Shown: one piece after another, positions 1,236 to 49,578 of the stretch
Layout: the number at the start of each line of letters is the position of its first letter
Numbering within the stretch: the stretch's first letter is position 1
DNA from: Lentibacillus persicus
Lineage (GTDB): Bacteria; Bacillota; Bacilli; Bacillales; Amphibacillaceae
Assembly (NCBI RefSeq): GCF_900112705.1
Contig: NZ_FOMR01000003.1
Location: forward strand, 124,001 to 188,000
Direction: 5' to 3'
DNA length: 64,000 nucleotides
Position numbers and translations under genes: made by a program
The notes under the pieces: model-generated
Database searches by the model: none
What the model was told of the DNA's origin: nothing
What the model saw: only the letters and a program-made list of their open reading frames with translations

Positions 1236-1420
1236 TTCGTTCGCGTGGTGATGCTGGTTATCGCGTGGTCATCATTGAATTTCGGTTGATTTTTCCAGTA
1301 TTTCGCGTGGTTACTGCCAGATTTCGATTGGTCCTTCCAACATTTCGCGTGGTCACCCTGGTATTTCGGTTGGTCCCTCCAACATTTCGCGTGATGCGAC
1401 TCGATTTCGCGTGATAAACC
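1236..1420. repeat. intergenic array 1: about nine units with a 20-21 bp period
   Basis: The core word TTTCG(C/G)(G/T)TGGT recurs with TCG at 1241, 1261, 1282, 1303, 1324, 1345, 1366, 1387 and 1407, so every step is 20 or 21 bases. Units are degenerate and partly alternate between an ATTTCGCGTGGTC type and a TTTCGGTTGGTC type. The array fills the gap between two minus-strand genes and ends about six bases from the stop codon at 1426. It leaves a repeat-filled open frame that is not a credible gene. Similar periodicity is found at four other places in the window. Confidence 0.9.
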
Positions 1421-14467: not shown

Positions 14468-14784
14468 GGCTGGGACAAAAGGTTTAAAATTAAAAGAAAA
14501 GACGAACGATGATATTAGGAAAGGGAGCGGAATACACCGCTCCGGAAATATGCTTCGCTTTCCGCGGGCGGCTGTTGAGCCAACTTGTGCTCGTCGTGTT
14601 GCAAGTTTTTCTGTGATGCAGCACTCCTCGCAGGTCGAAGCATACTCGATGAAGTCTTGCTTTGTGCCAAGGCACTTCGTTGTCTCACCTATGCCTCTCT
14701 TCCCGCAGGAGTCTCCGCATATTTCCTCCGCTAACCTTGATTATCGTTCGTCTTTTATATCTGATAAATAAGTTATGTCCCGGC
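14468..14784. repeat. MITE-like element, copy 2 (317 bp, long form)
   Basis: Same ends (GGCTGGGACA / TGTCCCGGC) and nested arms as copy 1, in the same orientation. It carries exactly 77 extra bases (14590-14666) bounded by GTG on both sides, which copies 1 and 3 lack. A fragment at 22697-22741 matches the complement of this extra part, so the long form is probably ancestral and the short one a deletion. It sits in the 536-base convergent gap between the DUF819 and superoxide dismutase genes, together with array 2. Confidence 0.9.
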
Positions 14785-14806: not shown

Positions 14807-14931
14807 CGCTCGATTTGACCGGCATGCGATCGTTCTGATGCTGCTCTCGATCGATTTGACCGGCATGTCGATTGTTCTGATGCTGTTCTCGATCGATTTG
14901 ATCGGCACCTCGATCGCTCTGATGGTTCAGC
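14807..14931. repeat. intergenic array 2: six units with a 20-21 bp period
   Basis: Units start with CGAT or CGCT at 14807, 14827, 14848, 14869, 14890 and 14911 and alternate between two flavours, one containing TTTGACCGGCATG and one containing GTTCTGATGCTG. The higher-order period is thus 41-42 bases. The array ends four bases before the superoxide dismutase stop codon (14935, minus strand), and no separate terminator for that gene is visible. Confidence 0.9.
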
Positions 14932-30951: not shown

Positions 30952-31006
30952 ATGAAAATTATGAAGGCAGCAATGATTTAACTCACTGCTGCCTGCTTAA
31001 ATTTTT
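30952..31006 (+). other. possible micro-gene: nine-codon frame, strong RBS and terminator
   Basis: GGAAGGAGGAG lies seven bases before an ATG at 30952 that encodes only MKIMKAAMI before TAA (30979-30981). A hairpin follows at once, GGCAGCA (30966-30972) with TGCTGCC (30987-30993), then a T-rich run ending near 31006. No real gene is on this strand nearby. It could be a tiny peptide, a leader or a small RNA; equally it may be chance. Confidence 0.25.
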
Positions 31007-31309
31007 CACTTCTGATTCAACTTTGAATACGCGATTGTTCAGTACATCGGTCTTATCATCAAAATGATCAATTATTTTTTCAGTATAGTCACCTACACTG
31101 GCGACCAAATTTTTTTGAAGTCTTTCCTGGCCGTCTTCAATCCTCTTCTGCCCCTGTTTCAAATCGGTTATATCTGTTTGTAAATCAGTTATGTCTGTAC
31201 GCATATCCGTTATATCTGTACGTATATCCGTTATATCTGTTCTTACGCCATCTAAACCCGTGCGTAATCCCTTTAATTCACTTAAAATCTGGTTTAACGT
31301 TTCATCCAT
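30983..31309 (-). CDS. coiled-coil protein with seven-residue repeats
   Basis: A 108-residue soluble protein. Residues about 18-52 are a perfect run of heptads of the type (T)DITDxR/xxT: DGVRTDITDIRTDITD is followed by MRTDITD, LQTDITD and LKQG. A second coiled-coil segment (about 55-105) follows. At the DNA level the heptads are 21-base tandem repeats (about 31160-31250). CGAGGGGGGAGCCCG precedes the ATG. The family resembles small 'DUF4083/coiled-coil' Firmicutes proteins, but I cannot name a function. Array 3 starts about 70 bases upstream. Confidence 0.75.
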   Translation of the reverse strand: MDETLNQILSELKGLRTGLDGVRTDITDIRTDITDMRTDITDLQTDITDLKQGQKRIEDGQERLQKNLVASVGDYTEKIIDHFDDKTDVLNNRVFKVESEVKNLSRQQ

Positions 31310-31381
31310 CGGGCTCCCCCCTCGTTTAGGCTATTATACCACCGGAGGACAGCAAACACACGTAATTACTGTCACCGCATT

Positions 31382-31474
31382 CAACGCGTAAATCCATGAA
31401 AAACTACAGCGATTATCCGTCTATCTATAGCGATGCGCTGAAAACTACAGCGATTTCTCACGAATCTACAGCGT
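31382..31474. repeat. intergenic array 3: four to five units with a 20-21 bp period
   Basis: CTACAGCG-type words begin at 31404, 31425 (CTATAGCG), 31445 and 31466, with a decayed one near 31382; the steps are 20-22 bases. The array lies between the coiled-coil gene and the GNAT gene and ends 20 bases from the GNAT stop codon (31494, minus strand). Confidence 0.8.
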
Positions 31475-38964: not shown

Positions 38965-39150
38965 TCATGCGAAATTGTGCGGAGACCACGCGATTTCCGT
39001 CCAGCATCACGCGAAACTCAACCGGACCACGCGATTTCCGGAGTTGACCAACCGAACCACGCAGATACCAACCGAATTCCACCCATCACTACGCGAACCG
39101 CGGCATTTGCCGGTCGTGCCACCAGCTAATTGCCATCCGTCACGCGCTTC
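38965..39150. repeat. intergenic array 4: about eight units with a 20-21 bp period
   Basis: CGA (or CGT) of the core words falls at 38970, 38991, 39012, 39032, 39053, 39073, 39094 and 39115: each step is 20 or 21. The words (CACGCGAAA, CACGCGATTTCCG, CCAACCGAA), read on the other strand, are TTTCGCGTG, CGGAAATCGCGTG and TTCGGTTGG, the same vocabulary as array 1 near the window start. It ends about 20 bases from the stop of the nucleoside hydrolase gene (39171, minus strand). Confidence 0.88.
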
Positions 39151-48779: not shown

Positions 48780-48789
48780 GTTACACAAA

Positions 48790-48827
48790 AACCCTGCCAA
48801 GGCTGAAAAGCCCCGGCAGGGTTATTT
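48790..48827 (+). terminator. terminator of the immune inhibitor A gene
   Basis: AACCCTGCC (48790-48798) pairs with GGCAGGGTT (48815-48823), with an inner GGCT/AGCC pair, followed by ATTT. Confidence 0.8.
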
Positions 48828-48842
48828 GATGCTGCTTGATTT

Positions 48843-48947
48843 TGTGAACTTCGGGGATTTTGCTGTGAACTTCGGGAATTTCATTGTGAACTTCGGGGGT
48901 TTTGCTGTGAACTTCGGGTTTTGGCCTGTGAACTTCGGGGATCATCC
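48843..48947. repeat. intergenic array 5: five exact 21-bp units
   Basis: TGTGAACTTCGGG starts at 48843, 48864, 48885, 48906 and 48927, each exactly 21 bases apart, with a variable eight-base tail. Read on the plus strand it encodes VNFGxxx heptads but has no start signal. On the minus strand it lies directly downstream of the methyltransferase stop (48961). Confidence 0.95.
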
Positions 48948-48960
48948 CTCAAAAGGTACT

Positions 48961-49578
48961 CTACTTCCGGCAAACAGCAATTCCAAGCGGGAAGTGCCGG
49001 TCATTAGAACGGACAGCAGGTTCTATCAACGGACCCTTCTGGAAATAGAACACAGCTGATGAATATTCAGGAAATAACTCCATAAACTCATCAACGGTGA
49101 GCTGATGTACGTGAAAAGGCGACCCGCACGGCTTGCCGCGTCCTTTGCCAAACGGTGTTGACAGAATAAGCGTCCCGCCTGGCTTCAATAACGCAAAAAT
49201 ATTTGCTAAAAATCGCTCCTCATCCGCAATGTGCTCAATCGTTTCAAAGCTGACAATGCAATCAAACGTACCCAATTTTTCCGGCAGATCCGGATCTGTC
49301 ACATCGCCTTCCATAAATATAGCATTCGGATGATGGTACGTGCCACGAGCATATTTGACTGCCTTAGGTTCCAAATCCACCCCAACAACTTCCTCCACAA
49401 TATCTTTTCTTTTTTTCGCCAGGAGCTGTGTACCATAACCAGTCCCGCTCGCAATATCCAATACACGTCCATACACATATTCAACAGCAAAAAAGTAACG
49501 CGCCATATGCTCCATCAGCATCTCATCGGCTGCTTTCATTTTTTCAGGAACCACACGTTCCCCGGTATCTTCTAACAT
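48961..49578 (-). CDS. class I SAM-dependent methyltransferase
   Basis: A 205-residue methyltransferase. Motif I is VLDIASGTGYGTQLL, with the acidic residue in VVGVDLEPKAV and the post-motif EGDVTDPDLP, then FDCIVSFETIEHI. N-terminal EDTGERVVPEKM is seen in a group of methyltransferases acting on small molecules or glycans. The substrate is unknown. Only GGTG lies before the ATG. The OFA-type transporter gene starts upstream on the same strand with just 19 bases between, so they may be one operon. Confidence 0.82.
   Translation of the reverse strand: MLEDTGERVVPEKMKAADEMLMEHMARYFFAVEYVYGRVLDIASGTGYGTQLLAKKRKDIVEEVVGVDLEPKAVKYARGTYHHPNAIFMEGDVTDPDLPEKLGTFDCIVSFETIEHIADEERFLANIFALLKPGGTLILSTPFGKGRGKPCGSPFHVHQLTVDEFMELFPEYSSAVFYFQKGPLIEPAVRSNDRHFPLGIAVCRK

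Follow-up and report, generated by a model that had tools for sequence, protein, structure and literature searches.

Short tandem arrays with a step of 20 or 21 bp, dispersed between the genes of Lentibacillus persicus, probably fall into several repeat families, each serving as the cognate platform for a single protein that combines a NERD (nuclease-related) domain with a zinc ribbon and a helix-turn-helix-like part. The pairing of this family of nuclease-domain proteins with phased DNA arrays is well supported by comparison of loci within and outside the genus, and it is very probable that the arrays are bound by their own NERD. The reasoning is that where the key motif of a repeat family recurs in the repeats next to one NERD gene, the units of that family are probably landing sites for the protein of that gene.

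Results

Five arrays in one window

The window (the whole stretch of 64,000 nucleotides analysed, G000:C10:124001-188000) is part of the 3.31-Mb draft genome of Lentibacillus persicus (G000), which consists of 23 contigs. The flotillin encoded in the window has its best matches in records of Virgibacillus, Lentibacillus and Halobacillus. All five arrays with a 20/21-bp step that a preliminary description had listed are present, and they use four vocabularies, as it had claimed; arrays 1 and 4 form one family in opposite orientations. Array 1 (1236..1420, plus strand) is of family A (TTTCGCGTGGT / TTTCGGTTGGT), steps by 21/42 bp and has the core found at NERD-A (locus L158, G000:C2:101694); the same site in genome G001, from a sister species, holds units of TCGCGCGGT type. 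Array 2 (14807..14931, plus strand; 21/42 bp) is of family F (TCGATCG...) and has no matching resident NERD, and its site in G001 is occupied by CGCTCGTT/CGCTCGAT units, the core of G001's own NERD L169. Array 3 (31382..31474, minus strand; 20/21 bp) belongs to family B (ATCGCTGTAG on the minus strand), includes a palindromic CGCTGTAGTTTTCAGCG unit and has the core of NERD-B (L164, G000:C11:161346). Array 4 (38965..39150) is a degenerate family A array on the minus strand, again with the NERD-A core; the orthologous spacer in G010 carries CGCGCGA-type units. Array 5 (48843..48947, plus strand; 21/42 bp) is of family C (GTGAACTTCGGG) and is without an intact resident cognate: the genome's own NERD-C gene looks broken, being a 218-aa ORF that lacks the C-terminal part and whose array has TTTAGCG. 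The core of array 5 is also found beside NERD L199 of G001. At the site orthologous to 48780-48960, G002 and G003 have the same gene tail, with a 52-bp array (G002) or a 51-bp array (G003) in place of the C array; the G002 array has no positive score against any profile.

Tandem Repeats Finder called arrays 1, 2 and 5, with a period of 21/42 bp. The signal from arrays 3 and 4 is weaker, with values of 0.56 and 0.59 at lag 41 in a lag scan. When lags 8-79 were tried on 100-base stretches of the window, lags 21 and 42 alone passed 0.58. One of the passing stretches, 31105-31310, is a coding seven-codon repeat and not an array; its 21-bp period lies in an ORF at 30983-31309 (108 aa, with a sub-cut-off YwqH-like match) and is unrelated to the arrays. 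A coding heptad repeat holds for this stretch only; as an identity for the arrays it is ruled out by the existence of 20-bp families and by the non-coding position of most arrays. A tblastn search for NERD genes was negative for the window and for L059-L097, and at gathering scores there are no Rfam matches in the window.

Period and placement across the genome

The preliminary description had proposed a scan of intergenic regions for the same period. In a sample of 464 kb of G000 (the window and two 200-kb stretches), the excess at 20/21 bp and multiples is far above chance. At a threshold of 0.55, coding sequence included, lags of 20, 21, 40, 42, 60 and 63 gave 11, 27, 8, 25, 9 and 12 stretches, respectively; lags away from 20/21 and their multiples gave at most six stretches each, and one random first-order copy of the sample gave two stretches in all. 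The earlier reading of 21 bp as two helical turns, with one period shared by several vocabularies, is upheld.

Gene positions for the placement counts came from a simple gene caller written for the analysis. Thirty-four non-coding stretches, one of which (C12:88814) resembles a terminator hairpin and not an array, are divided among tandem (22), convergent (10) and divergent (2) gene gaps. Twenty of the 34 have a stop codon no more than 60 bp away. Only two are in divergent gaps, and such gaps account for 22% of the intergenic bases when gaps of at least 120 are counted (P 0.011). The orientation of the array relative to the upstream gene, assigned by hand for 21 of the 22 tandem-gene stretches (C12:88814 omitted), is mixed: 11 run with the gene and 10 against it.

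These counts bear on the possibility that the arrays are gene-tail elements (terminators, pause sites or processing sites) acting as DNA or RNA, with NERD genes merely one neighbour among many. The preliminary description had suggested such a 3'-end element on the grounds that all five arrays end near the stop codons of minus-strand genes. Proximity to stop codons, and the scarcity of arrays between divergent genes, speak for this reading, but promoter avoidance would produce the same bias; the minus strand proved to be a coincidence of the window. The description had further held that none of the five genes has an ordinary terminator. None is listed just behind four of them, but the gene ending at 48961 has one, a strong terminator-like hairpin at 48823-48790 on the minus strand, on the far side of array 5. 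Replacement of terminators by arrays is contradicted by this hairpin, and an RNA element was rejected on the absence of an Rfam match in the window together with the mixed orientation. The sharpest association of the arrays is with NERD genes and with the resident core, as set out below, and a role at 3' ends is therefore unsupported; we give this reading almost no credence.

Anatomy of the units

A unit comprises a core of about 10-12 bp and a variable spacer of about 10 bases. In G000 the families seen are A, B and F, and C with its relatives, together with the 20-bp families D (CTCCGGAACATAT) and E (ATCAACAGAAGA). Among 43 B units selected by a 7-base pattern, the information content is 0.8 to 1.5 bits in six further columns, compared with 0.0 to 0.6 in the columns of the spacer. 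A search of 100 genomes for two exact C cores, or two exact B cores, separated by any 2-31 bases found C-core pairs in seven genomes and B-core pairs in five; the listed C-core pairs step by 21 or 42 and the listed B-core pairs by 21 or 41, apart from two steps of 22 and one of 20. The spacing is nearly fixed even though the gap was left free.

Comparison of G000 with G001 indicates that cores and spacing are better kept than spacer letters. Array 5 keeps 51 of 55 core bases and 23 of 38 spacer bases (4 gap columns), and a B array keeps 45 of 53 and 36 of 62 (19 and 1 gap columns). For array 2, in which the core has changed, the corresponding figures are 44 of 57 and 62 of 88. Against this, the spacers of an E array (70 of 87) are kept almost as well as its cores (74 of 82). 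By inspection, the 20/21-bp cores are direct and mostly non-palindromic, and several 52-bp cores look dyadic.

Further variants were observed. B arrays, such as those at G000 C11:98117 and at 31404-31454 of the window, often include a single fused unit that is palindromic (CGCTGTAGTTTACAGCG) and steps by 20 bp. A mosaic array in L051 (G007) passes through several core changes while its register stays near 21 bp. L088 and L091 (Pontibacillus) and L087 (Alteribacillus) hold arrays that step by 37 bp (GGTGTCAGACAC...) or by 31-33 bp and that the analysis did not link to a NERD gene. D arrays are also present within a dispersed element whose flanks are conserved and whose ends look inverted around AACTGCGACG (G000 C11:29500-30200, C11:65600-66100, C12:16700-17600 and C12:128500-129000), so that some arrays are carried by other repeats; the window at about 14540-14770 resembles the 5' part of this element.

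Arrays flank NERD genes

Paralogous genes flanked by arrays were first revealed by comparison of G000 with G001, and were identified as NERD genes. G000 has seven NERD (PF08378) genes, whose products score 55.1 to 69.5 bits against a Pfam gathering score of 22.1. Arrays stand beside all seven, on both sides of six, and have seven different cores: A at L158, B at L164, D at L160, E at L161, GTGAACTTTAGCG at L162 (one side), GGCTCAAG at L159 and ACCGTGCGAGA at L163. A Pfam scan of the seven flanked proteins returned NERD and two sub-cut-off hits only.

Twelve genomes of the genus yielded 77 NERD matches, of which 74 loci were read (3 were not fetched) and 72 had an ORF. Arrays of the 20/21 type occur on both sides of 34 of these 72 genes, on one side of 20 and on neither side of 18, and ten of the 18 have 52-bp (five-turn) arrays downstream; because flank arrays were recognised by period and not by core, a few hits are coding or unrelated repeats (e.g. 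downstream of L178). Among other genes, in about 1 Mb of G000 and G001, arrays were found on both sides of 1 of 827 and on one side of 137 of 827, compared with 2 of 3 and 1 of 3, respectively, for the NERD genes recovered by the same caller. L178 and L198 (G003 C1:624285 and 640749), separated by 16 kb, are two NERD genes that are close relatives and share a core type. Nuclease activity is predicted from the catalytic-type columns of the aligned genus NERDs, where D and K are present in 59 of 59, Q in 57 of 59, and E or D in 46 and 13, respectively.

Array-type NERDs end, by our reading of the alignment, in a zinc ribbon and a helix-turn-helix-like part. A profile of this C-terminal part was trained on genus loci and its matches compared with the presence of arrays. 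Within the genus, arrays accompany 58 of 60 NERDs with the C-terminal part and 6 of 12 without it, most of these last being shortened genes. Outside the genus, with repeats removed, the numbers are 31 of 32 and 7 of 37 (P 1.5e-11); what was removed from the named-genome set was 11 loci, 10 of them letter-for-letter genus loci and one a repeat of a sampled locus. The outside set includes 20 NERDs of 315-345 aa, hand-picked among the matches listed, from 20 families (19 other families and another genus of the family of Lentibacillus), and the script flagged arrays beside 19 of them; at the 30 top-scoring NERDs without the C-terminal part it flagged arrays at five. Exceptions by script are three loci with the C-terminal part and no array, L185 and L270 (array visible by eye) and L208 (none), and 13 NERDs with an array and no C-terminal part. 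A sequence search of the PDB gave nothing better than E 0.27, several matches being ribosomal zinc-ribbon proteins.

PF08378 matches occur in 180 of 199 Bacillales genomes, with up to 13 per genome. At E 1e-40 the array-type protein was found in 4 of 299 genomes drawn from the phylum (G000, two from its order and one from its class). Outside G000 this survey yielded four loci, and all have arrays, of 20/40, 21, 42 and 51 bp.

Period and core in relation to the protein tree

On a tree of 64 NERD proteins, with period labels assigned by hand and long branches flagged, the label changes 9 times, compared with 23.4 when shuffled; none of 200 shuffles was as low. As to cores, one clade has TCGCGCGA and TCGNGCGA, neighbouring subclades have CGCTGTAG and AAGTTCAC, and the 20-bp clade has TTCTGTTGAT and CTCCGGAACAT; another clade has the 52-bp arrays. 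Both the core and the period (20, 21 or 52 bp) follow the NERD protein tree.

Within the AAGTTCAC subclade, one helix position, seen post hoc, is S at the 6 loci that have GGCYCAAG, H at the 3 that have GCTAAAG/GATAAAG and Y at the 3 that have CCGAAG, the comparison using the downstream array, or the upstream array for L202 and L204. At L199 and L216 the upstream core differs from the downstream core. More generally, once the remainder of the protein was allowed for, identity in the recognition helix showed no relation to the core (partial r -0.002). Both observations count against the favored explanation.

Dispersed arrays and the resident NERD

Dispersed arrays often carry the core of the resident NERD and differ, with that NERD, between sister species. 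The flanks of NERD-A read CGCGTGG/CGGTTGG in G000 (L158) and CGCGCGG at the G001 orthologue (L183). Pairs of TTCGCGYGR number 7 in G000, all CGCGTG, and 11 in G001, 8 of them wholly CGCGCG, and solo arrays at the same sites differ between the sister species as the NERD-A flanks do (array 1; C12:180634). G005, G006 and G010 hold 22, 103 and 12 pairs (pair letters unlisted) and, like G001, have a CGCGCG-type NERD-A. Genomes without NERD-A hold one pair (G002, G004) or none (G007, G008, G011). A rank test of the four genomes with CGCGCG-type NERD-A versus the five without NERD-A gives P 0.009, G003 and G009, with 4 pairs each and NERDs of the neighbouring subclade, being left out. In Bacillus piscicola, 11 dispersed 52-bp arrays match the flanks of NERD L311 at 24.7 bits, and ten other profiles score -9 or less. 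All 11 lie in one 21-kb stretch (L097), which is an extreme density. Arrays that lack a resident match count against the pairing and would, if it holds, be relics; these are arrays 5 and 2, and the B-core pairs of genomes without a B-subclade NERD (8 in G010, 5 in G006 and 2 in G001).

If the arrays were ordinary minisatellites, then slippage would make the repeats and NERD genes would just sit in repeat-rich places. Some arrays are indeed almost perfectly uniform (C12:174805 and L110:15152), and the 42-bp alternation points to local duplication. However, cores and spacing are kept where spacers vary, a single core turns up at many sites that are not linked, the core goes with the NERD protein, and another genus shows the pairing at 52 bp. 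We regard minisatellites as a very improbable explanation.

Gain and loss of NERD loci

At the sites of L161, L159 and L164, a NERD gene is present in G000 and absent from G001, where one array remains. Collinearity of the left with the right array exceeds that of unit shuffles at 13 of 34 loci when 0/60 is required and at 17 of 34 at 2/60 or fewer, and L314 has nearly identical arrays on both sides. All this is what mobile NERD elements would leave, with paired arrays as their ends or duplicated target and solo arrays as recombination scars, like solo LTRs. However, NERD loci within clades largely keep their neighbouring genes across the genus, so that vertical inheritance and loss fit better, and we read the absences from G001 as losses by recombination between flanking arrays. 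Spacers differ among arrays of one family, which are thus not copies of a single element. Relatives of L183 are absent from phage records and viral contigs, with two weak matches to plasmids, and relatives of L160 are absent from plasmids. Mobility is, on these grounds, improbable.

The spacers of G006 are of a kind expected if arrays start locally and then grow in tandem: each listed A array has its own spacers, alike within the array, and a core that is common to all.

Discussion

On the explanation that we favor, the arrays are platforms for NERD proteins. The C-terminal domain would bind the core, and bound proteins would be aligned along the same side of the helix at intervals of two turns, or of five turns in the 52-bp clade. 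Less certainly, chance matches to the core may seed new arrays in gene-tail DNA, where added repeats would harm least, and the NERD nuclease may nick or break bound cores and so cause local tandem growth. Amplification driven by the nuclease is plausible, the balance leaning a little against it. Phased protein binding, and a process that keeps creating 21-bp repeats, had both been entertained in the preliminary description; as interpretations, both come close to where the evidence points.

Any given benefit to cell or gene is unlikely to be the right one. A first guess is that arrays mark self DNA for a DNA-processing nuclease, the alternative being a selfish satellite. It is a speculative suggestion, and a doubtful one, that NERDs write and rewrite their own landing sites: a fast-changing reading head would turn chance matches of 10-11 bp into two- or five-turn arrays and give each lineage several satellite codes of its own, which would renew themselves in its gene tails and perhaps mark self versus foreign DNA.

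The pairing matters in several respects. Array-type NERDs would likely gain a predictable, testable DNA target, and the pairing offers a footprint visible genome-wide, together with a series of changes in specificity supplied by nature. Many intergenic repeats of these bacteria that lack an explanation would be accounted for, and satellite DNA that evolves alongside its likely binder would have a bacterial example. In the sections of the 2022 SmdA paper covered here, the role of the NERD domain in bacteria is described as unstudied to its authors' knowledge, and the first mutational evidence is given for one NERD protein, which lacks several conserved residues (PMC9040797). The pairing of NERD with repeats is undescribed in the open-access literature searched, including the sections covered of PMC12802215 and PMC9040797, and the earlier statement that no named class behaves in this way agrees with that search, which found none.

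Abundant intergenic direct repeats are also known from Beggiatoaceae, where the TAACTGA repeats have a suggested post-transcriptional role; they differ in consisting of one short motif, without a flanked cognate gene in the sections covered of that report (PMC4679880).

Among defence systems, PglW (BREX) and MAD6 are NERD proteins, and their models are matched weakly by the NERD region of some of the proteins studied here. The scores are far below the curated cut-offs, with no report of a kinase part.

CRISPR arrays have longer, near-identical repeats, unique spacers and cas genes. This identity was rejected: the unit here is 20-21 bp in all, with spacers of about 10 bases.

The iterons of plasmid origins and the ParR/parC centromere (20-bp repeats in pSK41) are direct repeats about two helical turns apart that hold one protein in register. 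The arrays are alike in their spacing and, presumably, in their protein register, but they differ in number and setting, a genome having dozens of them on its chromosome, from several families and next to NERD genes; the flanked genes encode neither a replication initiator nor a partition adaptor, and the arrays are dispersed on chromosome contigs.

The closest analogue is the REP-RAYT system, in which a chromosomal gene is flanked by short repeats of its own type, intergenic copies are lineage-specific and the benefit is unclear. The two differ in the protein, a Y1/HUH transposase there (a domain absent from the Pfam scan of the seven flanked proteins) and NERD with a zinc ribbon and a helix-turn-helix-like part here, and in the repeats, single palindromes there and phased arrays of direct repeats, by inspection mostly not palindromic at 20/21 bp, here. 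In logic they are alike: a flanked gene accompanied by dispersed, lineage-specific repeats.
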